DNA of 64,000 nt from Arthrobacter alkaliphilus (GTDB lineage: Bacteria > Actinomycetota > Actinomycetes > Actinomycetales > Micrococcaceae). The stretch covers positions 428,501-492,500 of the forward strand of contig NZ_JAKEEC010000001.1 of assembly GCF_021483235.1 (NCBI RefSeq). The letters run 5' to 3'. This document shows positions 4,677 through 28,309 of this stretch, piece by piece; positions within the stretch are counted from its first letter, which is position 1, and each line of letters opens with the position of its first letter. The translations under genes and the position numbers were made by a program. The notes below the pieces were generated by a model. It was not told the origin of the DNA and searched no databases. It worked only from the letters and a program-made list of their open reading frames with translations.

Positions 4677-5666
4677 ATGACAAAGAAACCACTCCCCATC
4701 ACTGGTCTCCTGAGCCTCATTACCTCCGCCGTTTTGACCGTCTGTGCCGCTGGAGGGGCGGCAGCCGCAACACCTACTGCGGTTTCGAGCTTCGCAGCGC
4801 CTGGGACGCAGCAGCTCGTCAGCCTGGCGACAACCACCACCGACCCCACGGGGTTCTGGACTCCCGAAAGAATGCAAGCGGCCATCCCCGGCGATGTCCT
4901 TGCCGGCAAAGCCCTCGCACGAGGGGGCACCTCCGGCACTGCCAGCGGTACGGTCGAAACCGGCCCGCCGGTGAAGATCGCCAGCGCCAAGAGCAACAGC
5001 ACGAGCCTGCACCAGGACGAAGACCCGATTGACCACGTCGGCAAGGTCTTCTTCACCATGGGCGCCTTCGCCTACGTCTGCTCCGGCAACGTCGTCGTAT
5101 CGGACAACGACAGCACCGTGGCCACCGCGGGCCACTGCGTCAACGAGGGGCCAGGAGCCTTTGTCAAGAACTTCGTGTTCGTTCCGGCCTATCTCAACGG
5201 CAAGGCTCCTTACGGCATCTGGCCTGCCAAAGCCCTCTACACCACGCCCCAGTGGCGCACCGCGGGCGACATCCGCTACGACACGGGCTTCGCGGTTACT
5301 GCCACAGTGAACGGCAAGCACTTGGCCGACGTCGTTGGCGCGTCCGGCGTGGAATTCAACCAGGACCGGGGGCTCAGCTACAAGGCCTTCGGCTACCCTG
5401 CCGCGCCGCCGTTCGACGGGCAATCGCTTAAGAGCTGCTCCGGTGATGCCACCGATGACCCCATCAATCCACAGTTCAAGGCGCAGGGCATTCCCTGCGA
5501 TATGACCGGTGGATCATCGGGCGGACCCTGGATGGAGGATTCCGGCTGGGATTCGTACCAAAACTCCATCACCAGCTACGGCTACCCCGGCGGCCCGGCT
5601 GTGATCTACGGGCCTTATTGGGGCTCCGTCATCCGGGATGCGTACGAGCTGGCGTCCACGTCCTAG
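4677..5666 (+). CDS. Secreted trypsin-like/V8-like serine protease
   Basis: A 329-aa exported protein. Residues 1-31 form a Sec signal peptide (basic MTKK, hydrophobic core, AAA cleavage region). A propeptide-like Ser/Thr-rich stretch follows to about residue 115. The chymotrypsin-fold triad can be read as His153 (VATAGHC), Asp202 (RYDTGFAV) and Ser281 (GGSSGGPW). Two cysteine pairs (Cys135/Cys154 and Cys254/Cys274) are placed to form the usual disulfides near the His and Ser. It probably degrades extracellular protein for nutrition. It is monocistronic, ends in a strong hairpin terminator, and shares an upstream region of about 210 bp with the divergent icd gene. Confidence 0.88.
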   Translation: MTKKPLPITGLLSLITSAVLTVCAAGGAAAATPTAVSSFAAPGTQQLVSLATTTTDPTGFWTPERMQAAIPGDVLAGKALARGGTSGTASGTVETGPPVKIASAKSNSTSLHQDEDPIDHVGKVFFTMGAFAYVCSGNVVVSDNDSTVATAGHCVNEGPGAFVKNFVFVPAYLNGKAPYGIWPAKALYTTPQWRTAGDIRYDTGFAVTATVNGKHLADVVGASGVEFNQDRGLSYKAFGYPAAPPFDGQSLKSCSGDATDDPINPQFKAQGIPCDMTGGSSGGPWMEDSGWDSYQNSITSYGYPGGPAVIYGPYWGSVIRDAYELASTS

Positions 5667-7601: not shown

Positions 7602-8540
7602 ATGGATTCCGAGGATGTGATTCTGGTCGCCGACATCGGCAAGAGCCGGTGCCGGGTTGAACTCCGGCGGGGCGATGACGTGTTGGGCTCGGCGGACCAG
7701 CATGGCTTCCCCGGCCTGGGCATGGACAACGGCGCAGGGCACGCCTTCGAGTTGCTCGCTGACACCGCCGCCATGCTGCCGCGGGGGCTTCCGGCAGCAT
7801 TCCCGGAAGGTCCGTTGCGGGGAATCGGCGCCGCCGTCGCCGGGGTCGAGGCCTCCGCGGCCAACTCGCACGAACTCGCCGTCCTGCTTTCGGAGCGCTT
7901 CAAGGTTCCGGCCGCCGTTCTTTCGGACGCTACCGCCGCCCAACTCGGCGCCCTGGGCGGCGCAACCGGGACGGTGCTTATTGTCGGCACAGGCGCGGTC
8001 GCCTTCCGCTTCGACGACGCCGGAACCCTCCATCGTGCCGACGGGTGGGGACCACTTTTGGGCGATCGCGGAAGCGGCCGCTGGATCGGCCAGCAGGGCC
8101 TTGTGGCCGCACTGCAAGCGCACGACGGTGGGACGGCCACGTCGTTGCTTGGCGCGGCGGCCGCACTGGCCGGCTCGCCCGCGCAGCTCCCGGCGTGGCT
8201 CGCCGCCTCCGACAACCCGGCCCGGACTATGGCCCGTTTCGCCCCCGTGGTCCTGACTGAAGCGGCGGCGGGAGACGCCGTCGCCCGCGGGATTGTGGAC
8301 GAAGCGTGCAGGCTTCTCGTGAACACGGTGGCCCTCGCCGCCGGCGACACGAAGCAGGTGGCGTTGCTCGGCGGCGTCGTGACATCGGAGTTCTTCAGCG
8401 GGCTCTTGCACAACGCCCTCGCTTCGGCTGGGATTGAGGTGGTTGCGGCACTCGGCGACGGCATGGACGGGGCCGCCCTCGCAGCGCACCGCCGCGGGCT
8501 CCTCCAGGAAAGGTACATTCACCGTGACGGAACAGCCTGA
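7602..8540 (+). CDS. BadF/BadG/BcrA/BcrD-type ATPase, probable GlcNAc/MurNAc kinase
   Basis: A 312-aa protein of the ASKHA kinase fold. Phosphate-1 loop: [13 protein letters not shown] near residues 8-20; phosphate-2: [12 protein letters not shown] around residues 128-139; the segment [18 protein letters not shown] is typical of bacterial N-acetylglucosamine kinases of the BadF/BadG group, which includes MurK. It overlaps the murQ start by 17 bases, so the two are co-translated. A kinase making MurNAc-6-phosphate from free MurNAc immediately before MurQ is the natural reading, though GlcNAc kinase activity is also expected of this family. The ATG at 7602 begins [13 protein letters not shown]; an upstream in-frame GTG at 7572 adds only ten unconvincing residues. 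Confidence 0.75.
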
Positions 8541-9498
8541 CGCCTCTTCCCCTGCTTCATCCGGTTCCATAGGGGGCGACCCGCTGGAGAAACTCCGTTC
8601 CGAGCTCGAGGGCCTGCAAACCGAAGCGGCGTCGCCCGCCCTCAAGGACTTGGACACCATGGGCACGGCCGAGCTGGTCGCTGCCATGAACGAGCAGAAC
8701 CGAGGCGTTCCGGCCGCCGTCGAGCAAGCCAGCGAAGAGATCGCCGCAGTGGTGGACGCCGTTACGGAGCGCCTTTCCCGCGGCGGCAGGCTGCTCTACG
8801 TCGGCGCCGGAACGGCAGGGCGGCTCGGAATCTTGGACGCGAGCGAATGCCCGCCCACCTTCGGCACTCCCCCGGGTCTCGTCGTCGGGATCATCGCGGG
8901 CGGCACCCAGGCCATCCAGAAACCGGTGGAATACGCCGAGGACAACGCCACCGCCGGGGCCCGGGACCTGCACGACATCAGCGTGACCGAGGCCGACGCC
9001 GTCGTCGGAATCTCTGCCTCAGGCCGCACCCCTTACGTGATCGGCGCCCTTGAGGAGGCCCGCAGCCGCGGGGCGTTCACAGCGTCGCTCGCCTGCAACC
9101 ACGACTCACCGATCAGCAAACTGGCGGATGTCGCAATCGACGTCGTGGTCGGTCCGGAATTCGTTGCCGGTTCCACGCGACTGAAGGCCGGCACTGCTCA
9201 AAAACTTGTCCTCAACATGATCAGCACGCTCACCATGGTCAAGCTCGGGAAGACCTACGGAAACCTGATGGTCGATCTGCGGGCAACCAACAACAAACTT
9301 CTCGCACGGTCCCAACGGACTATCCAACACGCCACGGGCGTGGACGCGGAGACGGCGATCCGTGCTCTGGATTCCGTCGGCGGATCGGTCAAGGCGGCCA
9401 TCCTTGTCATCCTGACGGGGATCGATCCGGGGCAGGCAAAGAGCGCTTTGGATGAGGCCGGTGGGTTCCTGCGAAAGGCGATCGAGAAGCACGGATAG
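8524..9498 (+). CDS. murQ: N-acetylmuramic acid 6-phosphate etherase
   Basis: A 324-aa cytoplasmic lyase of the SIS-domain family that cleaves the lactyl ether of MurNAc-6-P to give GlcNAc-6-P and D-lactate. The signature [20 protein letters not shown] is at residues 92-111; Glu108 and the Glu in VEYAEDN (about 139) correspond to the two acid/base glutamates of the E. coli enzyme. SASGRTPYV is the sugar-phosphate-binding loop. The GTG at 8524 is preceded by AGGAAAGG and lies inside the kinase 3' end. The downstream MFS carrier starts 21 bases later. No RpiR-type regulator is next to it, unlike the enterobacterial mur locus. Confidence 0.93.
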
Positions 9499-9518
9499 AG
9501 TTTCCCCAGGAGGGGAAA

Positions 9519-10871
9519 ATGAATACTTACACAACCGTGCCCAGCGGCGAACAGGTTGTCCAGGAACTGCCGTGGAGGTGGAAGGTCCAGGGCAGGATCT
9601 TCCTGATCGGCGGCCTCGGCTTCATGTTCGATGCCTGGGATGTGACCCTCAACGGCATCCTCATACCGTTGCTTTCAAAGCACTGGTCCCTCCAGCCCGC
9701 CGACGCCGGATGGATAGGCACCGCCAATCTGGTCGGTATGGCCTTGGGTGCTTTCGTCTGGGGCACCATCGCGGACACGATCGGCCGGAAGCGGGCATTC
9801 ACCGCTACTCTGCTGGTCTTCTCCCTCTTCACGGTGCTCGGTGCGTTTGCCCCGGACATCGTTTGGTTCTGCGTATTCCGGTTCGTGGCCGGTTTCGGGC
9901 TGGGCGGCTGCATTCCGGTGGACTACGCGCTGGTCGGTGAATTCACTCCACGGAAGCAGCGCGGCAAGGTGCTTACGGCCATGGACGGTTGGTGGCCCGT
10001 AGGTGCTGCCTTGTGTGGATTCCTTTCGGCCGGACTGGTCGCTGCCTTCGCAGACTGGCGGCTGACGATGCTCGTCATGGTGTTGCCTGCCTTGCTGGTG
10101 TTCTGGGTCAGGCGGAGCGTGCCCGAATCCCCGCTCTTCCTCATCCGCAAGGGCCGCCGCCAGGAGGCCGCCGACGTGATCGACAGTCTTGTCCTGGCCA
10201 CAGGGGCTGAGCCGCGCGCCTACAGCCTGCCCGCCCCGGAAGGCGCGCCCCGCCTCTCCGCCGGCAGCGCCTGGCAGCAGTTGCGACGCATCTGGCAGTT
10301 CAACTGGAAGATCACGACGGCGGCCTGGGCCCTGTTTTTCAGCATCCTTCTGGTCTACTACTTGAGCTTGACGTGGATGCCGCGGATCCTGATCGGCGCC
10401 GGGTTCGAGGAGTACAAGGCCTTCGTGACGACAGCCGGGATGGCCGGCGTCGGGCTCCTGGGCGTCGTGGTCGCGGCGGTGCTGGTGGAGCAGGTGGGCC
10501 GCAAATGGATCCTGGCCATCACCGGACCGCTGTCCGCGTTGACACTTGTGATCGTGTCATTAGTAGTGGACATCCCTGACGCGGCCGTGTTCTGGCTCCT
10601 CGCGTACGGCTTCCTTATCCAGGTGGCCATTCCGGTGCTCTACACCTATGTTTCCGAGCTCTACCCCACCGAGCTCCGGGGCTCCGGCTTCGGGTGGGCC
10701 TCCACGTTCTCCCGGGTGGGTGCGGGGATCGGTCCGCTCGTCTTCGCCTCGTACTTCTGGCCCGAGCTTGGCCTGGCCACGTCGTTCGCCTTGGCTGGCG
10801 GGCTGATCGTGGTGGCTGTGCTGTGGATGGCGTTGTTTGCCCCGGAGACCAAGCAGCTCGACCTCGACTGA
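9519..10871 (+). CDS. MFS transporter, sugar/acid symporter type (candidate MurNAc importer)
   Basis: A 450-aa carrier with about 12 membrane segments. Between TM2 and TM3 it has GTIADTIGRKRAF (the MFS A motif), after TM4 PVDYALVGEFTPRKQRGK, and between TM8 and TM9 EQVGRKW, all as in the SV2/AAHS/sugar symporter branch. A strong RBS (CAGGAGGGG) precedes ATG 9519 and the gene follows murQ closely. The genetic context predicts transport of MurNAc or a muropeptide sugar, taking the role that PTS MurP has in E. coli; the family itself does not prove the substrate. Confidence 0.75.
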   Translation: MNTYTTVPSGEQVVQELPWRWKVQGRIFLIGGLGFMFDAWDVTLNGILIPLLSKHWSLQPADAGWIGTANLVGMALGAFVWGTIADTIGRKRAFTATLLVFSLFTVLGAFAPDIVWFCVFRFVAGFGLGGCIPVDYALVGEFTPRKQRGKVLTAMDGWWPVGAALCGFLSAGLVAAFADWRLTMLVMVLPALLVFWVRRSVPESPLFLIRKGRRQEAADVIDSLVLATGAEPRAYSLPAPEGAPRLSAGSAWQQLRRIWQFNWKITTAAWALFFSILLVYYLSLTWMPRILIGAGFEEYKAFVTTAGMAGVGLLGVVVAAVLVEQVGRKWILAITGPLSALTLVIVSLVVDIPDAAVFWLLAYGFLIQVAIPVLYTYVSELYPTELRGSGFGWASTFSRVGAGIGPLVFASYFWPELGLATSFALAGGLIVVAVLWMALFAPETKQLDLD

Positions 10872-10872
10872 G

Positions 10873-11010
10873 CATGCCCCCTGCCCACGACCAAGAGTGG
10901 ACATATCAGCAATATGTCCATCCTTCGCGGCCAACGGCGCGCATGTCCCGCGGAGGGCTCTGGACATGTCCATCAATGGCGGTCAAGAGTGGGCATGTCC
11001 CTAGGGGTGC
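10873..11010. repeat. GGACATGTCC-type palindromic repeat, copy 2
   Basis: Intergenic element between the MFS gene (+) and purN (-), convergent. It contains a hairpin TGGACATAT/ATATGTCCA (10898-10906 with 10912-10920, 5-base loop), a GGACATGTCC palindrome near 10963-10972 and a further GGGCATGTCC unit. It shares CATGCCCCCTG and GGACAT words with the element at 5684-5798. The likely job is bidirectional termination. The two copies bracket purH plus the MurNAc cassette. Confidence 0.7.
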
Positions 11011-11017
11011 GTGGGAT

Positions 11018-11590
11018 TCAGGCGTGCTTCCCCGCCGCGAGCTCGGCGAGTGTCCGGACGAGGAGCCTGCGCTCCACGACCTTGATGCGTTCGTGCAGGG
11101 TGTCCTCGGTGTCGTCCGGGGCGATGTCGACGGCTTCCTGCGCGATGATAGGCCCGGTGTCCACGCCGGCGTCGGCCCAGTGAACGGTGCAGCCAGTCAC
11201 TTTCACGCCGTACGCCATGGCATCGCGGACCCCGTGGGCGCCGGGGAACGCGGGCAACAGTGCCGGGTGCGTGTTGAGGTACTTGCCGTTGAAGGCATCG
11301 ATGAACTCCGGGCTGACGATCCTCATGAACCCGGAGGAGACCACCACGTCAGGATCGTACGATGCAACGGCCTTGGTGAGCGCGGCGTTCCAATCCGCCC
11401 GGTCCGCGTAGTCCTTGAAGTCCACCACGAAGGTGTCCAGTCCGGCTTGGGCGGAGCGTTCCACGCCGTAGGTGCCGGGCCGGTCCGCGCCCACGGCTGC
11501 GATCTCAACGTCCAGCTCGCCCGCCTTCACGGCGTCGATTACTGCTTGAAGGTTGGAACCGGTGCCGGAGACGAGGACAACAATGCGCAT
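11018..11590 (-). CDS. purN: Phosphoribosylglycinamide formyltransferase (GAR transformylase)
   Basis: A 190-aa enzyme transferring formyl from 10-formyl-THF to GAR in purine synthesis. It starts MRIVVLVSGTGSNLQAVIDA, with the phosphate-binding GTGSNL loop. The catalytic set Asn106, His108 (NTHPALLPAFPGAHG) and Asp144 (DAGVDTGPII) falls at the same numbers as in E. coli PurN. In mycobacteria the order is perM-purN-purH; here perM is on the same strand upstream, with a small plus-strand gene between them, and purH is about 3.5 kb further on. Confidence 0.95.
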   Translation of the reverse strand: MRIVVLVSGTGSNLQAVIDAVKAGELDVEIAAVGADRPGTYGVERSAQAGLDTFVVDFKDYADRADWNAALTKAVASYDPDVVVSSGFMRIVSPEFIDAFNGKYLNTHPALLPAFPGAHGVRDAMAYGVKVTGCTVHWADAGVDTGPIIAQEAVDIAPDDTEDTLHERIKVVERRLLVRTLAELAAGKHA

Positions 11591-18437: not shown

Positions 18438-19634
18438 GTGAGGATCGCTATCGTTGCCGAATCATTCCTGCCGCTCATGAACGGGGTTACGCACTCCATA
18501 CTGCGGGTGCTCGAGCATCTGCAGGAGCGCGGCGACGAAGTGATGGTGATTGCGCCGTCGACGTCGGACACTGCTGTCTCGGACGTCGTGAACGGCGCAT
18601 TTATCCACCGCCTCCCCTCCGTGCCCCTGGCCGGATACACGAATGTGCGGGTGGCCCTGGGTGGCGTGAGCCGGGTCAAGAGAATCCTTGCCGACTACGC
18701 ACCGGACGTCGTCCACCTCGCATCGCCTTTCGTCCTGGGCTGGCGGGCCGTGCAAGCCGCGCACCAACTGGGCATCCCGACCGTTGCCATCTACCAAACC
18801 GAAGTCCCCAGCTACGCCGGCCGCTACGGCTTGCCGATGCTGGAGAACTGGGCGTGGAGCCGGGTGGACAACATCCATCTTCGTGCAGACCGGACACTGG
18901 TCCCGTCCACGTTCGCGCTCAACCAGCTGCGCGGCCGCGGGATCCTCAGGGTGGGCATGTGGCGCCGCGGTGTGGATACCGCGCGGTTCTCCCCCACCAA
19001 GCGCTCGACGGCGTGGCGCACCGCCGTCGCGCCCAACGGCGAGCGCATCATCGGCTATGTCGGCAGGCTCGCGGTGGAGAAGCAGGTGGAGGACCTTGCC
19101 GTGCTCGCGGACCTGCCCGGAACCAGGCTCGTGATTGTGGGCGACGGTCCGCAACGCGCCACCCTCGAAGCAGCCCTGCCGAACGCCCTCTTCACCGGTT
19201 TTCTGGGCGGCGAGGAGTTGGCCCAGGTTGTGGCGGGCTTCGACCTCTTCGTCCATCCCGGGGAATTCGAAACGTTTTGCCAGACCATTCAGGAGGCAAT
19301 GGCCTCGGGCGTCCCCGTCGTGGCCACCGGCCGCGGCGGTCCCCTCGACCTTGTGGAGAACTCCCGCACCGGCTGGCTTTACGAACCCGGCGACCTCGCG
19401 CAATTGCGGGCCTACGTGCAGGACCTGGTGGGCGACGACGCCAAGCGCCGGGCCTTCGGAACGGCGGCACTCGCTTCGGTCCAAGGGCGGACCTGGCCGG
19501 TGCTGAGTGCCCAGCTCGTTGAGCACTACGAGGCAGTGATCGCGGGCGAAGCGCTCGTGGAACCCGCTGTGCTTCAGCAGGCAAAGCCTGCCACCACCAT
19601 TTCCCTGACTTCCAGCAAAGGACTGCCAGCATGA
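18438..19634 (+). CDS. GT-B glycosyltransferase family 1/4, GDP-mannose-dependent alpha-mannosyltransferase type
   Basis: A 398-aa cytoplasmic, membrane-associated GT-B enzyme. The N-terminal domain starts RIAIVAESFLPLMNGVTHSI, typical of MgtA/PimB-like mannosyltransferases; the C-terminal donor domain has GYVGRLAVEKQVEDL and the E-x7-E region EFETFCQTIQEAMASGVPVV. Probable role: mannosylation of a glycolipid (lipomannan or glycolipid precursor) in the envelope. The GTG at 18438 has GGAGG very near (spacing about 2), so an upstream alternative start is possible. Its stop overlaps the ATG of the UDP-glucose dehydrogenase gene by 4 bases (ATGA). Confidence 0.82.
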   Translation: MRIAIVAESFLPLMNGVTHSILRVLEHLQERGDEVMVIAPSTSDTAVSDVVNGAFIHRLPSVPLAGYTNVRVALGGVSRVKRILADYAPDVVHLASPFVLGWRAVQAAHQLGIPTVAIYQTEVPSYAGRYGLPMLENWAWSRVDNIHLRADRTLVPSTFALNQLRGRGILRVGMWRRGVDTARFSPTKRSTAWRTAVAPNGERIIGYVGRLAVEKQVEDLAVLADLPGTRLVIVGDGPQRATLEAALPNALFTGFLGGEELAQVVAGFDLFVHPGEFETFCQTIQEAMASGVPVVATGRGGPLDLVENSRTGWLYEPGDLAQLRAYVQDLVGDDAKRRAFGTAALASVQGRTWPVLSAQLVEHYEAVIAGEALVEPAVLQQAKPATTISLTSSKGLPA

Positions 19635-20995
19635 AAATCTCGGTTGTAGGCTGCGGCTACCTTGGCGCCGTGCATGCCGCTACCCTCGCGTCGATGGGCC
19701 ACACCGTGGTGGGTATCGACGTCGACGTCCAGAAGGTCGCCCAACTGGACAAGGGCCTCTCTCCCTTCCACGAGCCCGGCCTGGACGAACTCCTCCGCGA
19801 CGGCTTGGATACCAAGCGGCTCACGTTTTCCACCGATTTCGCCGACGCGGCCGGCGCCCAGGTGCATTTCATCTGCGTGGGCACTCCGCAGTCGAAGACT
19901 TCGGAGACGGCGGACCTCTCCTATGTGATCGCAGCTACCAAGAGCCTGCTTCCGCACTTGGCAAGGGGCGCCGCAATCGTCGGCAAGTCAACCGTTCCCG
20001 TGGGAACAGTGGACATGCTCCGCGGAGTCCTTGCCCGGCGGCCGGATGTGCTGCTCGGCTGGAACCCCGAATTCCTGCGCCAAGGCACGGCAGTGAAGGA
20101 TTCATTGGTCCCGGACCGTTTGGTGTACGGCGTGCCGGGCGGCAAGGGCTCAGCAACGGGCGCCCCCGTCACGGCTGCGCTTGACGCAGTCTACGAACCG
20201 CTGATTTCCGCCGGGATCCCGCGGCTGGTCTGCAACTTCGCCACCGCCGAGCTCATCAAGTCCGCCGCCAATGCGTACCTCGCCACGAAGCTCAGCTTCA
20301 TCAACGCCATCGCCGAGCTTTGCGACGCCTCAGGGGCCGACGTAACCGAGCTCAGCGAGGCTATGGGCCTGGATCCTCGCATCGGCAGCCGGTACCTCCA
20401 CGCAGGTTTGGGTTTCGGCGGTGGATGCTTGCCGAAGGACATCCGTTCGTTCCGGACGCAGGCACAAGCGTTGTCCGTGCCCTCCCTCGATGAGTGGATG
20501 GGCGTGGTCGACTCCATCAACCTGGCCCAGCGCGCCCGGGCCGTGGATGTTGCGCGGGAAATGTGCAAAGGCTTCCTGTCCGGCCGCACCGTCACCGTCC
20601 TCGGTGCCGCGTTCAAACCGGACACCGACGATATCCGTGACTCCCCGTCACTCGACGTCGCCCTCCAATTGGCCGCTGCCGGCGCCCACGTTACCGTGAC
20701 GGATCCCAAGGCCATCAACAATGCCTGGATGCGCTATCCCCAGCTCCGCTTCGAAGCGTCCACCACCCGCGCGCTCGAAGGCGCCGAGTTGGTGCTTCTG
20801 CTCACCGAATGGGACGAATACCGCGCCCTCTCCCCCGCCGCCGTCGGCTCGCTCGTACGACGCCGGATGGTTCTGGACGCGCGGAACGTCCTGGATGCGC
20901 GGGCATGGCAGGCGGAGGGCTGGACGGTTCGCGGGCTCGGGACCGGCAACCATGCTGAGCAGCAAAGTGGCCGCAAACGGATCTCAGTGTTTTAG
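19631..20995 (+). CDS. ugd: UDP-glucose/UDP-ManNAc 6-dehydrogenase family protein
   Basis: A 454-aa NAD-dependent four-electron oxidase making UDP-glucuronate from UDP-glucose. N-terminal Rossmann motif VVGCGYLGAVHA (residues 5-16), the central domain with NPEFLRQGTAV and KSAANAYLATKLSFIN, catalytic Cys266 in GFGGGCLPKD, and the C-terminal UDP-binding domain with GAAFKPDTDDIRDSPS. Coupled to the upstream glycosyltransferase, so it likely supplies uronic acid for the same envelope glycan. The last codons (RISVF) run into the CTCAGTG-type repeat array that starts at the gene's 3' end. Confidence 0.92.
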   Translation: MKISVVGCGYLGAVHAATLASMGHTVVGIDVDVQKVAQLDKGLSPFHEPGLDELLRDGLDTKRLTFSTDFADAAGAQVHFICVGTPQSKTSETADLSYVIAATKSLLPHLARGAAIVGKSTVPVGTVDMLRGVLARRPDVLLGWNPEFLRQGTAVKDSLVPDRLVYGVPGGKGSATGAPVTAALDAVYEPLISAGIPRLVCNFATAELIKSAANAYLATKLSFINAIAELCDASGADVTELSEAMGLDPRIGSRYLHAGLGFGGGCLPKDIRSFRTQAQALSVPSLDEWMGVVDSINLAQRARAVDVAREMCKGFLSGRTVTVLGAAFKPDTDDIRDSPSLDVALQLAAAGAHVTVTDPKAINNAWMRYPQLRFEASTTRALEGAELVLLLTEWDEYRALSPAAVGSLVRRRMVLDARNVLDARAWQAEGWTVRGLGTGNHAEQQSGRKRISVF

Positions 20996-21112
20996 CCCGA
21001 AACACACGTAGACGGGCCACCGCGCACACGGAGATTCGGCTTTTTCACACTGAGAAACGGCCTTTTGCACACGGATTTTTCCGTTTTTTACACGTAGACG
21101 CCAATTTCACCG
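20977..21112 (-). repeat. CTCCGTGTGC/CTCAGTGTG repeat array, copy 1 (minus-strand sense)
   Basis: Read on the minus strand this gap contains a row of related words about 20-25 bp apart: CTACGTGT, ATCCGTGTGC, CTCAGTGTG, CTCCGTGTGCGC, CTACGTGTG, each followed by A/T- or G/C-rich filler. A second array of the same words lies at 28045-28178 in the opposite orientation. The first word overlaps the end of ugd. Together the two arrays bracket the bacteriocin cluster. Confidence 0.7.
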
Positions 21113-21215: not shown

Positions 21216-21494
21216 GTGGAATCAACAATGACTAAGAGGACCGGCCTTCAGGCTGCGGCAGCGGCGGCGCTGGCCGTGACCGGCATCTTCGGCGCGAGCT
21301 TGGCTGTTTCATGGATCGCGGGATCCCTGGGCATCTCTGCCGCGGCGGCGTCCCAGATCATGCACGCAATCGAGGTCGGAGGCTGGGCCCTCGTTGTCAT
21401 CGGCACGATCTTCGGGGCAGGAATTACTGGCGCTTTGATCGCAACGGCTCGAAGCATCCTCTTCCGCATCGGCCGGGCACAAGCAGTCGCCTAA
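21216..21494 (+). CDS. Circular bacteriocin precursor, enterocin AS-48/uberolysin-like
   Basis: A 92-aa hydrophobic precursor. Residues 1-33 form a leader with basic N-terminus and hydrophobic core (GLQAAAAAALAVTGIFGASL); the remainder aligns by eye with mature AS-48: IAGSLGIS against MAKEFGIP, then AA-rich helix 1, then IEVGGWALVVIGTIF against VEAGGWVTTIVSILT, Gly/Ala-rich helix 3, and a basic helix ending RAQAVA, close to the C-terminus of uberolysin (KAQAV). The alignment predicts cleavage after Trp33 and head-to-tail ligation of Ile34 to Ala92, a 59-residue ring of four or five helices with a net charge near +2. GGGG lies 5 bases before GTG 21216; ATG 21228 is an alternative. The following membrane and ABC genes support the call. 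Confidence 0.85.
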   Translation: MESTMTKRTGLQAAAAAALAVTGIFGASLAVSWIAGSLGISAAAASQIMHAIEVGGWALVVIGTIFGAGITGALIATARSILFRIGRAQAVA

Positions 21495-21498
21495 ATCG

Positions 21499-22059
21499 AT
21501 GCTTGCTACGACAGCACGCGTGCTTGGGGGCATCCCTGGATGGCTGCTCCCAAGCACGGGCCTCGCCATGGCAGCCATAGCCATCTTCGGTTACTCGGCT
21601 GTGGACGTGTCCTGGATCCGCGATGCCCGCGAGATGGGCGGGAGTCCCCTCTACGGCAAAGACTTCCCCCAGATCCTTGGGCGAAACATCGGCGCGGCCT
21701 TGGTGCTCTATTCGGGGGTAGCGACCCTCGGGCTGACTACGCTGCTCGGTGCCGGAATCCTGGCGCTGTACGTCGGGGCGACCGTGTCCCTCGGAGTGCA
21801 TTCCGTCGGCAGTGCCGGCTTGGTTGCAGACGTGATTTGGTACGTCCCGTTCGAGTTCCTCGGCCTCGTGATGGCGGCGACCGCGGGATTCCAGCCGGTG
21901 GCGGGCCTGGCCCGCAGGCTGGTCATGAAGAAAGAGTCCGTAACCCTGAGGTCGTTCATCGACGACATGGCCCGTTCCCTCGGCACTTTGCTCATCGCCA
22001 TCGTCCTGATTGTCCTCGGCGCCGTTATCGAGGCCATCGTGATCCAGCTAAGGACCTGA
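21499..22059 (+). CDS. SpoIIM/DUF95-family membrane protein of the bacteriocin cluster
   Basis: A 186-aa protein with about five membrane segments, starting 4 bases after the precursor stop. The core VPFEFLGLVMAATAGFQPVAG matches the conserved E-x8-AG turn of SpoIIM (stage II sporulation M, DUF95) proteins. A DUF95 protein is the one gene conserved across circular bacteriocin clusters (As-48C, CclC and relatives), where it is needed for maturation, export or immunity; the precise step is unproven. The absence of sporulation genes nearby argues that it belongs to the bacteriocin. Confidence 0.8.
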   Translation: MLATTARVLGGIPGWLLPSTGLAMAAIAIFGYSAVDVSWIRDAREMGGSPLYGKDFPQILGRNIGAALVLYSGVATLGLTTLLGAGILALYVGATVSLGVHSVGSAGLVADVIWYVPFEFLGLVMAATAGFQPVAGLARRLVMKKESVTLRSFIDDMARSLGTLLIAIVLIVLGAVIEAIVIQLRT

Positions 22060-22069
22060 GGAGGAATTC

Positions 22070-22678
22070 ATGACCAGCACGGAAGACGGCCGGGAGTCCG
22101 AGACCGTCATCAGCGTCGCCAAGGTCGGAAAGTTGCGCCCCGAGCCCTCAGCAACCAGGGAATGGGTCTCCACGTCCCGCAGCTTGTGGATCTCAGCCTA
22201 CGTCCTACTCATGGCTTTGGTGGCACTGCGGCTTCCCCTGACCAGAAAGTATCTCAGCGCGAACGTTCCGGAGGACGTGCGCTCGGAAATCGGGGACGAC
22301 CGTCTGCTCGGTCTCTCCATGACCGTAGGCACTGTTTTGTTCTTCCTTGTCTATGCCGTGATCATCGCTTTGTACTTCTCGCTGGCCGCGCTCTTGGACA
22401 AACGGGTCATCCCGGGAAAGTCGGTAGTAGCCGGCCGCTTCAATATCGGGGCGTTCTTTGTGATCGCCATAATGGCCACCATCCCGGTGAATCTCTTCAG
22501 CGTGGTCTTCGGTGTCATCCAGCCGCGGGAAGTCCCCGGATATTGGGCCTATTTCCCCTCGATGGCCGTTCTGGCCCTGGCGATCTTCTACCGGCATTGG
22601 CGTGAGTTTTCCACAGGCCGGAAGATCCTCGTTGTGCTTTCGGCCGTTGGTCTGTCAACAATAGTCGCCATCGGCTGA
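22070..22678 (+). CDS. Membrane protein of the bacteriocin cluster, unknown family
   Basis: A 202-aa protein with a 40-residue hydrophilic N-terminus followed by about five membrane segments (roughly 40-58, 85-112, 125-148, 158-172, 183-200). A very good RBS (GAGGAATTC) precedes ATG 22070, 10 bases after the DUF95 gene, so it is in the same operon. No motif I can name. By position it could be an accessory maturation protein or part of self-immunity. Confidence 0.75.
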   Translation: MTSTEDGRESETVISVAKVGKLRPEPSATREWVSTSRSLWISAYVLLMALVALRLPLTRKYLSANVPEDVRSEIGDDRLLGLSMTVGTVLFFLVYAVIIALYFSLAALLDKRVIPGKSVVAGRFNIGAFFVIAIMATIPVNLFSVVFGVIQPREVPGYWAYFPSMAVLALAIFYRHWREFSTGRKILVVLSAVGLSTIVAIG

Positions 22679-22714
22679 CCTCCCCCAACCACCACCCACG
22701 GACAGAAAGTCTCA

Positions 22715-23122
22715 ATGACTCCTCAGCTCTTCAGCCTTCTTCTACGAATCGTGGGCCTCATGGTCGCTGTATTCTCCTGCGTTTCAGCCGGCGCGATGTG
22801 GGCCTCCCCGGCCCCGGAAGGCCTCAAGAACCTGGATCCCATGGCCGTGAAGAACACGATGGTCACCGTACTCCTCGTCTTCGGGGTCGCGGCCCCGCTG
22901 ATTGCGGCCTTTGGGCCGGCCGGGAAATGGCTGCCGCTCAAAGCGGCCGTTTTCGCCGTCGCCGGTTTCGCCAACGCGGCGGCCCTCAGCCCGGTACTGG
23001 TTGTCCCGATCCAGGGCGCGACGTCGGCCCTCGCCGCCGTCTGTGCGCTCGGACTCGCCGTACTCACCGTTGTGGCCTTCCTGGACGCAGTCCAGAAGAA
23101 GAGTCCGCGGAGCAAGTTCTAG
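22715..23122 (+). CDS. Small four-helix membrane protein of the bacteriocin cluster (immunity candidate)
   Basis: A 135-aa protein with membrane segments near residues 5-28, 45-65, 72-92 and 100-125 and a basic C-terminus (KKSPRSKF). Known circular-bacteriocin immunity proteins are small, hydrophobic and basic, which fits, but they are usually shorter and there is no sequence motif to rely on. It is co-directional, 36 bases after the previous gene and 6 bases before the next. Confidence 0.7.
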   Translation: MTPQLFSLLLRIVGLMVAVFSCVSAGAMWASPAPEGLKNLDPMAVKNTMVTVLLVFGVAAPLIAAFGPAGKWLPLKAAVFAVAGFANAAALSPVLVVPIQGATSALAAVCALGLAVLTVVAFLDAVQKKSPRSKF

Positions 23123-23128
23123 GCACTG

Positions 23129-24658
23129 ATGAGGACCGCAACGCCGCCCGCCGGATTCGCAGTCCGGGCTTCGAGCGCCGGGGTCGCTAGCTCGGGGCTC
23201 CGGCGGTCCGATTACCGAGTCCTGCGGGATTTCCGGGCCTTCGAAGTGGTCAACGCAATGCGTCTGCCGCTCACGCTGGACGGTTTCAGGGCACTCGCGG
23301 TCTTCGGGTCAATAGCCTTGGTCCTACTCGGAACAGCGGTATTCGCAACCATGATGTCCGTCCTGCGCGACGGCCCGCTCCGTCACGACACGGCCGCCGT
23401 GCTCAACTGGGGATTCCTCGCGATCCTCTACTCCGCCGTCGTCGCGGTCCTCACTGAGGTAGTCTCGAGCCGGCGGCTGGCCGTCTCCGGCTCACCGCAC
23501 CTGGAGCTCTTCCGGGCGATGGAGCTACCTCTTTCGCAGGTTGTGGTGAGATACGGTCTGATCCCGGCGCTCCGCCGCACAGGCATCCTTTGGTATTCGG
23601 CAGCGGTCTTCCTCGTGGTGTTCTTCGAGGAATCATCGGGCTACGCCGGCGTGGTGGCCGCTTCAGCCTCCGTCCTGGTTCTCGCCTCCTGTGCGTGCGC
23701 CTACTGCGTCCTCCATTTCGCTTCAACACCTGCGCAAAGGATCGGCCTCCATTGGCGGTACGTTCTCTTTGCCCTCATCCTTGGACTGCTGCTTGGGGCA
23801 GTTACGGGCTTTCTCCTGCCTCAGTTCTCCCGGCTCGGCAGCCTCGCGGAGGACCCCGCGCGCTTCCTCCCGGTCTTGTATTCGCTGGTAGCTATCGGGT
23901 CAGGGGTGCTGATTTTCCTGAGCATCCGCGCTTGGCGCCGCCTGAGTTACTTCAGGATTTCCTTCGGCCGCGAGCGGGCCGGCAGCCGACCACGGGCGGC
24001 GACGTTCGGACGATTCGTAGTCACTGATCTGTTGAGCAGCAAGCAGGGCTCGGTGATAGCCACCATCGTCCTCGCTTGGATCGCCGTCGTCGGCATCCTC
24101 CTCGGAGCCCGGGGAATCCTTCCCTTGCAGTCGGCTCTCGGCCCCGGGGAACTGGACAAGACTCTGATTGGTGCTGCCGTGCTCCTAAGCCTGGGCGTCA
24201 CGGAACCGATGCTTTATCGGATCGGGCCCACGGCGAAGCTCCACCACTACCGCTTTGCGTGGGAGAACGGTTGCTCGGCCGCTGGAATCGTTGTGCGGCT
24301 CGTCGGAATATATGTCACGGCGGGGGCAGCCATCGGTGGATTCGTTTTCCTGGGGACCCTTCTCGCTCTGGGCATTGCGGTTCCCGGCGCTGTCCTCGCT
24401 GGTGCGATCGTCGCAGCGTCCGGAGTCGTCGCGGAATCGCTCTCGCGTCCGCCAGCCACCACTGACGGCACCAAGTCCAATGATGTGATGGACGGCCTAC
24501 TTACGCTTCTCCTGATTTCTCCTTGCTCGCTCGTCCTTGTTGTCAGCCCCCAGTTCAGCACTGTGCTGCTGTTGGGTTATTCCATCCTCTTGATCCTGGG
24601 AGCCGCCTCATGCCTGAACCAACGCCTTTTGAGGCTTCGATCGAAATCGATGCTGTAA
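23129..24658 (+). CDS. Large polytopic membrane protein (ABC permease-like or As-48B-like maturation protein)
   Basis: A 509-aa protein with about twelve hydrophobic segments spread over residues 55-500 and an Arg-rich cytoplasmic N-terminus. Circular bacteriocin clusters carry a comparable large membrane protein of 500-560 aa (the As-48B/CclB type) believed to act in processing and cyclisation; this gene is the right size and position. Alternatively it is the permease partner of the ATPase that overlaps it by 49 bases. The sequence contains no obvious protease motif. Confidence 0.72.
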   Translation: MRTATPPAGFAVRASSAGVASSGLRRSDYRVLRDFRAFEVVNAMRLPLTLDGFRALAVFGSIALVLLGTAVFATMMSVLRDGPLRHDTAAVLNWGFLAILYSAVVAVLTEVVSSRRLAVSGSPHLELFRAMELPLSQVVVRYGLIPALRRTGILWYSAAVFLVVFFEESSGYAGVVAASASVLVLASCACAYCVLHFASTPAQRIGLHWRYVLFALILGLLLGAVTGFLLPQFSRLGSLAEDPARFLPVLYSLVAIGSGVLIFLSIRAWRRLSYFRISFGRERAGSRPRAATFGRFVVTDLLSSKQGSVIATIVLAWIAVVGILLGARGILPLQSALGPGELDKTLIGAAVLLSLGVTEPMLYRIGPTAKLHHYRFAWENGCSAAGIVVRLVGIYVTAGAAIGGFVFLGTLLALGIAVPGAVLAGAIVAASGVVAESLSRPPATTDGTKSNDVMDGLLTLLLISPCSLVLVVSPQFSTVLLLGYSILLILGAASCLNQRLLRLRSKSML

Positions 24659-25254
24659 CCGCCGGCTACCGGCAAGGCTCGCCCGTCCTGGACGGAATTA
24701 GCCTCAGCATGGGCCAGCCGGGGCTTTACCGGGTGGCTGGCAGCAATGGCAGCGGGAAATCGACCCTCTTGGAGCTCATCAGCGGCTTCCTCCACCCCTG
24801 GGCTGGAAGTGTTCGTCTTTGCGGTATCGACGCGGGCTCCCCCGACGCGCGCCACGTACGGAGCGTCTGCCGGACGACACCGGCACTCTACCCCTCCATG
24901 ACGGTTCACGATCATCTGGCCTTCGCGGCGCGCAGCCGTCAGGTCGGTCCGGAGGCCGGGCTCGCCCGGCTGGCCAAGTATGGACTGCGGGATTGGGTGG
25001 AACAGCCCGTCTCGATGCTGTCGACGGGCAACATCCGAAAGCTCTGGCTGCTCATGTGCACCGTGGCCGATACCCCTGTGGTCGCTATCGATGAGCCCTT
25101 CAATGGCATGGACGTTCGTGGAGTGGAGGCCCTGATCGATGAGCTCGGCGACTGGGCACAGCATAAAGTGGTGGTTCTTATCTCACACACACTTCCGGAG
25201 GAACTAACCATCAGGCATTCGTTTGTCTTCAAGCAGGAAGGAGCCCTCCCGTAG
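24610..25254 (+). CDS. ABC transporter ATP-binding protein of the bacteriocin cluster
   Basis: A 214-aa single-domain ATPase. Walker A GSNGSGKST (residues 44-52), Walker B VVAIDEPFNGMD, H-loop ISHTLPE. The signature is degenerate: MLSTGNIRK in place of LSGGQ. It would power export of, or immunity against, the circular peptide together with the membrane protein whose 3' end it overlaps. GGGAG lies about 7 bases before ATG 24610, which decides the start over the open frame further upstream. It is the last gene of the operon; the LuxR gene converges 20 bases later. Confidence 0.85.
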   Translation: MPEPTPFEASIEIDAVTAGYRQGSPVLDGISLSMGQPGLYRVAGSNGSGKSTLLELISGFLHPWAGSVRLCGIDAGSPDARHVRSVCRTTPALYPSMTVHDHLAFAARSRQVGPEAGLARLAKYGLRDWVEQPVSMLSTGNIRKLWLLMCTVADTPVVAIDEPFNGMDVRGVEALIDELGDWAQHKVVVLISHTLPEELTIRHSFVFKQEGALP

Positions 25255-25274
25255 GACGGAGACGATCCGACGGT

Positions 25275-27857
25275 TCACTCCATCCGCTTCTCGCGGAATG
25301 GCGACGTATCCCGGACAAGGTCAAAGAGGGCGGTCCGGGATGGGCTTCCTGTCTTGCGCAGCGCGTTGGAGATGTGGCTTTCCACGGTCCTGATACTGAT
25401 TCCCAAATGTTCGGCGATCTCGGGGTTGGAGCGATGACCGGCCAGGGCTGCTATTTCGATTTCCCGGACAGTCAGGGGTGAGTAGCTTCCGGAACTAAAC
25501 GCGACGGGTTCATCCGCCGAAGGAAACCGCGTCGCGAACAGGGAGTACGCGCGGTCCATAGCGGCCGCACCGACGGTGTTGTCCACGAATGCGTGCCGTT
25601 TGAAGGCGCCGCGGAGCAACATTCGTACCTGGTAGAAATCGGCGTCGGGCTCGTAATGCTCAAGCAGCACACTGAGCATCTGGTGGTCGTCCTCCACCAC
25701 CGCGGCGGCAATTGCCAAAAGCTGATCATGTGAAGCGGACGGGGCGTGTTCTTTCAACGTCTGCCGAAGGAGTTCAAGCACTTTCCGGCCCGGGAGAAGG
25801 CACGTGAAAAAGAGCGCGGAATAGATCGCCTCGAGGATATAGCCGCGTTCAAGCTGCCGCTCAACGAGTTTCGCGGCCTTCCCCTCAAACACAGCGGGGA
25901 TGAGGGGCCGCGAGGCGACGAGCTCGTACACTCCTTTCGCTGTTCCCGGGAGCGGGCCGATGTCTTCGGTTTCGCGCCGCGCCTGGGTGGCAAGGGTCGC
26001 TGCGGGCAAGATCGCGGACGTTGCCGTCCTGAGCCCGGCGAGCCTCAGCATGGCGTCGTGGAGGGAGGCCACCAGGAAACCTGGCCTCCCCAGCGCAAAG
26101 ACGCTGCCCATGAGGTACTCGGCGTCGTCGAAATAGCCCCGGTAGATCAGGGCCTGGGCCGCCACATAGGTGTTGGCAACCATCCCGAATTGGTCCAGCT
26201 TGCGGCGGGCGTCTGCGCGTTGGTCAAGAGCGAAGACAATCGCTTCATCGATCCGTCCGGAGGTGAACAAAGCCATTCCTCGTATGAACGGTTCGATTCC
26301 CGGAATGCCTCTGGGACCGCCCGAAGTGTCGATGGCTTTGAGCGCGGCGGACGGGTTGAACCGGTAGAGCTCCAGAACGCCCCGGATGCTCGATATGACG
26401 CCGCTTTCGGGGTGACGATCATGCAGGCGCGCGAAGATCTGCTCGAGATTCTCCGGCATCCGGTCGTAGGACGCCACGAGGAAAAGTTCTACCGCTTCGG
26501 CCTCGGCAGACCATTTGGGACGTTCCTCCCCAAAGCTCCTGAGGGCGCCGACTGCCGAGGCCAGTCCTTTGCCCTTATGGATCGACCAAAGCGCTTTCGT
26601 AAATGCCAGGAACAGGAGATCGCACGATGCTCCTTCCGAGGTCAAGGTCCGTGCAAGGACACGCTCAATCCGCGACGCGTCGATGGGCGAACCCCAGTAG
26701 ATCTTTAGAAGTGCCGCAGCATTTGATACCGAGCTGACGGCGTTCCACCGTTCGTACCGCTGGCGCTCCACAACGGAGATTTGCTCATGAAAGTGGCGTG
26801 CCGTGGCTGCGTCATCCGAGTTTCGTTCAAGGCGCAGCGCCGCCAGGACCCTCATCAGCGAATCAGGCGAGTTGAGTTCAACATGGGACTCTTGCGGCAA
26901 GCCGCTGAGGGCGCGTGTGATTCGGCTTTTCAGGACACGCCTGCTTGTGAGCACTCTTTGGCCACGGAAGTAGTCGGCCAGGACTGGTGGCGTGATCGAG
27001 GCCGAGACGGTGTTGTGGAGATCCTCCACGACGGAGATGAGACCGCGCTGTTCGAGCCTGTCGAGAATGTCGGAATGGACAACCTGTTGAAGTACGTCAA
27101 GGGGTGTAGTCCCGGCGATCGCCATGGCCTGAAGGCCCGTGAGTTCGTCGGGTCCGAGTCCTTCGAGGAGAGATTCCGCCGTGCCGTGGAGGTGCTCGTT
27201 CCACAGGGTCTCCCCTGTCATGCGCCATTGACCGTGGCGGAGGACAATCAAGCCACTGAGGGAAGCAGTTTCCGCGATGCGGACCACAAGCCGCGGGTTC
27301 CCGGCCGATTGTGTCAGGATCCGGGCAGTGGTGTCGGTGTCCGCCGGAGCGCCCAGAATTTCTGTGAGGAGCTCGTTCACTTGCTTGTAGCGCAGCGGAT
27401 TCAACAGAACCCTGGCTTCCGGCCCGGAGCCGAGCGCAGGCGGCTGTGCCATCGAGTAGATGGAAGTCTCGCCCATGGTGACGATCATGGGCCGTCCGGT
27501 CCGACGCCGGACAGCGTCCAGTACCGCGACACTCTCAGCGTCGACGAACTCAAGGTCATCAACTACAAGCACGCGCTGCCCAGGCCTGGAGAGCCTGCTT
27601 GCCAGAGTGTCAGCCACACCCAAAACTCCCAATTGGCCTATTCGAATATCCAGGCTCAGGCTATGTATTCCACCAAACGGTATTTCGCGGTGCGAACGGA
27701 GTCCCGAAACGAAATAAACGGTAGCGCCCGTATTTTCCAGGTCGGCGATAGCTTTTTTCACTACGCTCGTCCGCCCGCTTCCGGGCGCGCCGACAACTCG
27801 AACCATCATTCCGCGAGCAACGTAGTCCAGCGTTCGCCGAACTTCCTGATCGAACAC
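25275..27857 (-). CDS. Large LuxR-family regulator with N-terminal AAA+/STAND ATPase
   Basis: About 860 aa. N-terminal NTPase with P-loop GAPGSGRTS and Walker B VLVVDDLEFVD, a long helical middle of tetratricopeptide character, and a C-terminal LuxR HTH (LTVREIEIAALAGHRSNPEIAEHLGI then RTVESHISNALRKTG). This is the LAL-type layout used for pathway-specific activators in actinobacteria. It converges on the bacteriocin operon and is bracketed with it by the two repeat arrays, so control of the bacteriocin genes is a fair inference. Start uncertain: the frame is open to TTG 28007, but the first persuasive residues are MFDQEVRRTL from GTG 27857. Confidence 0.82.
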   Translation of the reverse strand: MFDQEVRRTLDYVARGMMVRVVGAPGSGRTSVVKKAIADLENTGATVYFVSGLRSHREIPFGGIHSLSLDIRIGQLGVLGVADTLASRLSRPGQRVLVVDDLEFVDAESVAVLDAVRRRTGRPMIVTMGETSIYSMAQPPALGSGPEARVLLNPLRYKQVNELLTEILGAPADTDTTARILTQSAGNPRLVVRIAETASLSGLIVLRHGQWRMTGETLWNEHLHGTAESLLEGLGPDELTGLQAMAIAGTTPLDVLQQVVHSDILDRLEQRGLISVVEDLHNTVSASITPPVLADYFRGQRVLTSRRVLKSRITRALSGLPQESHVELNSPDSLMRVLAALRLERNSDDAATARHFHEQISVVERQRYERWNAVSSVSNAAALLKIYWGSPIDASRIERVLARTLTSEGASCDLLFLAFTKALWSIHKGKGLASAVGALRSFGEERPKWSAEAEAVELFLVASYDRMPENLEQIFARLHDRHPESGVISSIRGVLELYRFNPSAALKAIDTSGGPRGIPGIEPFIRGMALFTSGRIDEAIVFALDQRADARRKLDQFGMVANTYVAAQALIYRGYFDDAEYLMGSVFALGRPGFLVASLHDAMLRLAGLRTATSAILPAATLATQARRETEDIGPLPGTAKGVYELVASRPLIPAVFEGKAAKLVERQLERGYILEAIYSALFFTCLLPGRKVLELLRQTLKEHAPSASHDQLLAIAAAVVEDDHQMLSVLLEHYEPDADFYQVRMLLRGAFKRHAFVDNTVGAAAMDRAYSLFATRFPSADEPVAFSSGSYSPLTVREIEIAALAGHRSNPEIAEHLGISIRTVESHISNALRKTGSPSRTALFDLVRDTSPFREKRME

Positions 27858-28044
27858 TCGCGATCCAACTTTCTCTGACGCGCTGATCCAGCACTCCCCG
27901 GGCCTTAGGTGGAGCGAGGTCCAGACGATCGAACTGTCTCCGGCCCAAAGCAGGGCGCTGGCCAGGCCGGCTCCCAAGCTCTCCTGCTGAATCCCCCGGG
28001 TGCGCAAACGAACCTCGTTCCAAGGGAAACCGTAAAGTCCGAAA

Positions 28045-28178
28045 CCGCCATCTCAGTGGTGTTTTGGCGAAACTCAGTGTGCGCGGGGAGGCGTCTCCGT
28101 GTGCTGACGTGGGGTTTTGTTCCGCATCTCCGTGTGCGCCGATCAAAACTCAGTGTTCCGCCGGCGTCCACGGAGATG
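28045..28178 (+). repeat. CTCCGTGTGC/CTCAGTGTG repeat array, copy 2 (plus-strand sense)
   Basis: Contains CTCAGTG, ACTCAGTGTGCG, TCTCCGTGTGC, ATCTCCGTGTGCGC and ACTCAGTGT, spaced 20-35 bp, and ends in an inverted copy (CACGGAGATGAGG). The words match the array at 20977-21112 but run in the opposite direction. The 27858-28463 gap holds this array, an AT-rich stretch with a LexA-like site, and the promoter region of the lipoprotein; no other gene was seen. Confidence 0.7.
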
Positions 28179-28309
28179 AGGTTTCGCGGTGGTTTCTCCA
28201 TGGCCCTCCTAGTGGCGGTCTCTTGCTTACGACGCTACGGGGGTTTCGCGGCCACCCCTAGATCCAACCTCACGTATGTGGATATTTATTCGAATCTTAT
28301 TTTGCTTGA

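Follow-up and report, generated by a model that had tools for sequence, protein, structure and literature searches.

A conserved Arthrobacter operon predicted to make a circular bacteriocin, with a likely immunity gene that also occurs alone

Background

Circular bacteriocins are known mainly from Firmicutes. Within a 64,000-nucleotide stretch of the Arthrobacter alkaliphilus genome (contig NZ_JAKEEC010000001.1, positions 428,501 to 492,500), hereafter the window, a short hydrophobic reading frame is followed by genes for several membrane proteins and an ABC ATPase, an arrangement that a first-pass annotation read as an AS-48-like circular bacteriocin cluster. The locus raises two questions: whether an actinobacterial lineage maintains a circular bacteriocin system, and which of its genes would protect the producer.

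The annotation was right in placing the cluster in an actinobacterium, the host being of the Arthrobacter type. Its remark that such loci are described mainly in Firmicutes stands as a matter of numbers, with two actinobacterial precursors among 6,928 according to the available text of one survey (PMC8534725), but not as a boundary, as clusters in actinobacteria and in an Arthrobacter have already been published (PMC8534725, PMC10456417). Here we describe genes A to F at positions 21216-25254 as a conserved operon whose probable product is a circular bacteriocin of about 59 residues, closed head to tail, and in which D is the likely immunity protein.

Results and discussion

A compact six-gene operon

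Re-examination of the window confirms a compact operon of six genes, A to F, on the forward strand (Table 1). All six were found, together with the large regulator converging on them, on the strands first reported. Stop-to-start gaps of 4, 10, 36 and 6 nt separate A/B, B/C, C/D and D/E, respectively, and F, which starts at ATG 24610, shares its first 49 nt with the end of E. The SpoIIM/DUF95 neighbour named in the first-pass annotation is present and conserved, although the window copy of B scores under Pfam's own cut-off; all 11 aligned members of the B family match PF01944 at E ≤0.1, the best at 2.9e-6. A Yip1 match occurs in one of 11 members of the C family, and E reached no Pfam family above cut-off in a search of the window proteins. 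No leader protease or cyclase was identified. The LuxR-type gene, R, is likewise present and converging, with a reading frame that extends to 28007 and a start that is unsure.

Table 1. Features of the operon and its site in the window
Feature	Description	Position	Strand	Basis
A	Precursor, 92 aa	21216..21494	+	PF09221, 26 bits against cut-off 23.6
A, leader	Predicted leader, residues 1-33	21216-21314	+	Core boundary by alignment with NKR-5-3B and AS-48
A, core	Predicted core, residues 34-92 (59 residues)	21315-21491	+	Alignment with NKR-5-3B and AS-48
B	SpoIIM/DUF95-like membrane protein, 186 aa	21499..22059	+	PF01944, 21.5 bits, under cut-off 26.9
C	Membrane protein, 202 aa, Yip1-like at best	22070..22678	+	PF04893, 20.4 bits, cut-off 28.6
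D	Membrane protein with four predicted helices, 135 aa; likely confers immunity	22715..23122	+	Distribution without precursor; four predicted helices
E	Large membrane protein, 509 aa, likely ATPase partner	23129..24658	+	Position and conservation
F	ABC transporter ATPase, 214 aa	24610..25254	+	PF00005, 8.8e-18
R	LuxR-type regulator with N-terminal ATPase region, start unsure	25275..28007	-	GerE, 2.6e-9
ugd	UDP-glucose/GDP-mannose dehydrogenase family, site landmark	19631..20995	+	PF03721, 3.8e-52

The precursor and its core

The reading frame of A gives 92 aa from GTG 21216, with an alternative start at ATG 21228. The GTG is favoured by locus L009, where codon 1 reads ATG and codon 5 reads ATC, and by the sequence TGGAATC, counted from codon 1, which is invariant in 10 aligned upstream regions. 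In keeping with the family assignment first proposed, A passes the curated cut-off of the circular bacteriocin family PF09221 (residues 35-92, E 1.1e-5); on TIGR03651, which models the circularin A/uberolysin subfamily, it scores 23.1 bits, under the curated cut-off of 30.7. A protein search returned 38 homologues at E ≤0.001. Six of the homologues carry NCBI names: three are labelled 'hypothetical protein' and three 'uberolysin/carnocyclin family circular bacteriocin', the latter from bacterium RCC_150, Arthrobacter sp. CJ23 and Paenarthrobacter nicotinovorans.

When a 22-row profile of the A family was searched against the PDB, NKR-5-3B was returned at E 2.7e-5 and AS-48 at E 0.01 and 0.054. 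The label 'AS-48-like' is accordingly loose, since AS-48 is matched but NKR-5-3B is matched better. In this profile the first mature residue of both peptides aligns opposite I34 of A, which agrees with the earlier placing of the core in the last 59 residues, and the core aligns with positions 4-63 of the 64 in NKR-5-3B. The predicted leader of 33 residues falls inside the range of 2-48 given for known circular bacteriocins in the available text of the survey (PMC8534725). Across the 22 rows the core is free of gaps, and the mean share of the commonest residue is 0.78 in the core versus 0.53 in the leader.

A saposin-like fold of four to five helices, which the first-pass annotation had put forward as a check, was not reproduced in a model of the uncleaved precursor (pLDDT 80.6, pTM 0.40). 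The model consists of two long helices, residues 7-37 and 42-91, and a Foldseek search with it against the PDB gave no match up to E 10.

Relation to known systems

A precursor, a SpoIIM/DUF95 protein and an ATP-binding protein, three kinds of gene expected in a circular bacteriocin cluster, are all present and conserved here. The closest known relatives belong to the uberolysin/carnocyclin (circularin A/uberolysin) family, PF09221, for which NKR-5-3B (2mp8) is the best solved match. With this family the window cluster shares a precursor over the Pfam cut-off, the core boundaries, and SpoIIM-like and ABC ATPase neighbours; it differs in its TIGR03651 score below cut-off, in its actinobacterial host and in a core with three Arg and no Lys. 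The AS-48 core, by comparison, has eight Lys and two Arg.

The AS-48 cluster of pPD1 (L077) comprises the same kinds of gene (precursor, large membrane protein, SpoIIM protein, ATPase and small membrane proteins), but in a different order, and the AS-48 core has 70 residues against 59. When the B-F families were compared by hhalign with single pPD1 proteins, F matched the two ATPases at 99.5% and 99.2%, and every other pair stayed at or below 1.6%; the B profile used there included one row (L071) in the wrong frame, with stops as X, and L071 was left out of the later B alignment. Given that NKR-5-3B scores better and that only the ATPase of the machinery matches, assignment to the AS-48 subfamily or machinery was rejected. 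The pPD1 SpoIIM protein scores 42.1 bits on PF01944, on which the window B also scores, and hhalign returned no match between them, so B is tied to the SpoIIM family through the Pfam model rather than directly.

Two published clusters were compared by description. The cerecyclin (cyc) cluster of Bacillus cereus, as set out in the available text of PMC8534725, likewise has a precursor, a DUF95 protein, an ATP-binding protein and a YIP1 family protein, but it comprises ten genes, among them one for a regulator of its own and one for a proposed immunity protein of 58 residues. The ten-gene AS-48-like cluster of Arthrobacter sp. APC 3897, which its authors claimed in 2023 as the first such in Arthrobacter (PMC10456417, available text), has in common with ours a predicted circular bacteriocin in this genus and DUF95 and ATPase genes. 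Its peptide is described as 71.3% identical to AS-48 and is therefore a different peptide from A. Thus the cluster is of a known kind, as the NCBI labels of the homologues and the APC 3897 precedent indicate, with a peptide that differs from that of APC 3897. Our literature search, which covered neither bioRxiv nor most subscription journals, found no paper on the A peptide or on D; the word Arthrobacter is absent from the main text of PMC7132975, PMC8659200 and PMC8534725, and PMC11679952 mentions 'circular bacteriocin' nowhere but among its references.

Conservation and spread of the cluster

Among 198 genomes of the genus, PF09221 marks 20 places in 19 genomes, and the A family profile 21 places in 20 genomes; none of 14 control genomes has a PF09221 match. 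Beyond the genus the precursor is scarce. It was found in one of 394 genomes of the class, which is the organism's own, and in four of 396 of the order, a count that includes the own genome and a probable chance match (G636, E 9.7e-4, in a 481-aa frame). The order search also yielded L123, with matches to A, B, C, a weak E, and F in order, and L122, with matches to the precursor and F and an open frame of the size of B. A plasmid origin was rejected, as the precursor found no match at E ≤1 in the plasmid collection.

All six genes are matched in their order in eight of nine named loci, the remaining one, L005, being cut off by the end of its contig; L002-L009 come from eight of the 198 genus genomes, so that the two sets overlap. 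Another 11 precursor loci were read with long flanks (L066-L076), and each of them has a match to F. The first-pass annotation had expected the precursor to keep SpoIIM and ABC neighbours, and this is very largely so: a SpoIIM-like B neighbours PF09221 at 19 of the 20 places, and the last place (L021) is at a contig end. The one exception is L121, in the additional genome found by the profile (G173), where 4900-5387, at the ugd site, contains a precursor and after it no more of D than the second half, and B, C, E and F are not matched; it looks like a decayed locus. In L007 (strain Hiyo8), B and E are split into pieces in different frames over 8313-11435, through decay or sequencing errors, and in L010 (Sinomonas susongensis, 9911-11428) the ORF coordinates, read by eye, place an internal stop in the E frame.

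A more distant type accounts for seven of the 20 places (L066-L072), of which six genomes contribute one each and G065 one as its second place. The open frames of this type have a similar order by eye, with a gene of the size of D clear only in L070 and L072. The gene close to three of these clusters (L067, L068 and L071) we take by eye to be purL. G065 carries both types, the close (L004/L030) and the distant (L069). After the distant-type clusters of L066, L069, L070 and L072 there is a second ATPase gene with a membrane protein gene, perhaps an additional immunity transporter. Shared immunity by ABC transporters is described in PMC10598978 (available text).

The precursor is under strong purifying selection. 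In close-type loci the dN/dS ratio of sums is 0.042 for the leader, 0.058 for the core, 0.134 for B, 0.159 for C and 0.241 for D. These four genes were covered, A and D with 10 close-type loci, B with nine (the broken L007 being set aside) and C with nine (L076, of another length, being set aside); L005, L009, L010 and L073 were left out of all sets. As the most constrained gene of those measured, the precursor is unlikely to be an idle relic.

D as a likely immunity gene

D is matched in 34 of the 198 genus genomes, of which 15 have a precursor and 19 do not by the profile search; the five precursor genomes with no D match are all of the distant type. We read 13 of the 19 loci that have D without a precursor, those of G048, G155, G161, G162, G174 and G196 being left out. 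In 12 of the 13, D sits between ugd and R; L110 has it at another place. Genes A, B, C and E went unmatched in all 13 loci, and the F-like matches there, at 23-29% identity, look like ordinary ABC proteins. G148 combines a ugd-D-R arrangement (L108) with a distant-type cluster on a separate contig, and L009 has the whole operon plus a second D upstream of A. The D tree joins this second D to a set of 10 orphan D genes with support of 100/100, and it places the L061 and L108 copies within the operon D genes, on a branch that is weakly supported (85/83) and drawn open. Since 6 of the 29 inner branches are starred, independent losses are left uncounted.

This distribution fits immunity better than biosynthesis, because a part of the biosynthetic machinery would be useless alone. 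D is likely to be the immunity protein of the operon and, further, to represent a new immunity family kept by relatives that lack the peptide. According to the available text of PMC7132975, the known immunity proteins of circular bacteriocins are small, with two to three membrane helices, whereas D has four predicted helices. Its structure model (pLDDT 80.5, pTM 0.71) consists of four helices and has no PDB match at E ≤0.001, nor did hhalign match D with the AS-48 cluster's small D1-like protein.

An alternative that we regard as unlikely is that D resides at the ugd-R site as a membrane protein with some other role, was taken into the operon from there, and confers no immunity. The company of ugd and R in 12 of the 13 orphan loci read would suit such a resident, as would the good preservation of the orphan D group, whose 55 pairs give a dN/dS ratio of sums of 0.082 at a median dS of 1.35, where synonymous change is nearly saturated. 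Against it, two operons at a distance from ugd and R (L010 and L073) have D as well, it lies away from the ugd-R site in L106, L109 and L110, and in L009 a second D stands beside a complete operon. Returning to immunity, we advance tentatively, at somewhat less than even confidence, the broader proposal that D founds a new four-helix family of circular-bacteriocin immunity proteins selected on its own, and that about one in 10 of the sampled Arthrobacter-group genomes (19/198) keep D without the peptide, mostly at one chromosomal site, as the footprint of resistant non-producers living beside makers of a circular bacteriocin that is highly conserved in these actinobacteria. The D genes without a precursor offer a natural test set, in which D-positive versus D-negative species should predict resistance to the peptide, and resistance without production becomes directly testable within one genus.

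The regulator and the chromosomal site

The landmark of the site, ugd, is matched in 120 of 121 genus genomes. R keeps its place at this site in 14 fetched loci that lack the operon (L061, L065, L098-L105, L107, L108, L111 and L112), so it probably belongs to the chromosomal site rather than to the operon, and the earlier inclusion of the LuxR-type gene in the cluster is not sustained. It is likely that R is a neighbour rather than an operon member and need not control the operon. That R is instead a dedicated regulator, as the first reading implied, seems improbable to us: it adjoins or lies near the operon in 10 of the 13 close-type loci with enough flank (the window, L002, L003, L004, L006, L007, L009, L074, L075 and L076), but it persists where the operon is absent and is unmatched in the fetched flanks of 10 operon loci, namely L008, L010, L073 and the distant-type L066-L072.

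Short repeats around CTC(A/C)GTGTGC occur at window positions 21024-21098 and 28073-28181, on both sides of the ugd-distal block. A genomic-island reading of these flanking motifs was rejected, as the organism's genome has the paired pattern a single time and no insertion boundary was demonstrated. The motif has five matches in the window against 0.86 expected, and one of 100 shuffles had as many.

Proposed pathway and product

Cyclisation, export, activity and immunity are inferred for this system as follows. A would be made as a 92-residue precursor, and its leader would be removed, probably by a protease encoded elsewhere, after which I34 would be joined to A92 to close the ring. By family and position, B and E with the ATPase F are the likely agents of maturation and export, and C may serve some step of the pathway. 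Once mature, the hydrophobic and weakly cationic ring would make the membranes of competing Gram-positive bacteria permeable, as is expected of the family, while D in the producer's membrane would block its action; relatives keeping D with no detectable precursor would then be resistant non-producers. A peptide that is membrane-active and is cleaved and exported by the same proteins, yet stays linear, we consider very improbable. In its favour, no enzyme for cyclisation is known or was seen, the last residue is Ala as against Trp at the end of AS-48, and the fold was not reproduced in the precursor model. Against it, A belongs to PF09221, and the two ends of its core line up with those of NKR-5-3B, whose peptide is known to be circular. 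The clade would offer a conserved actinobacterial circular-bacteriocin system with an exact predicted mass, the monoisotopic value for the core being 5740.21 in cyclic form and 5758.22 in linear form.
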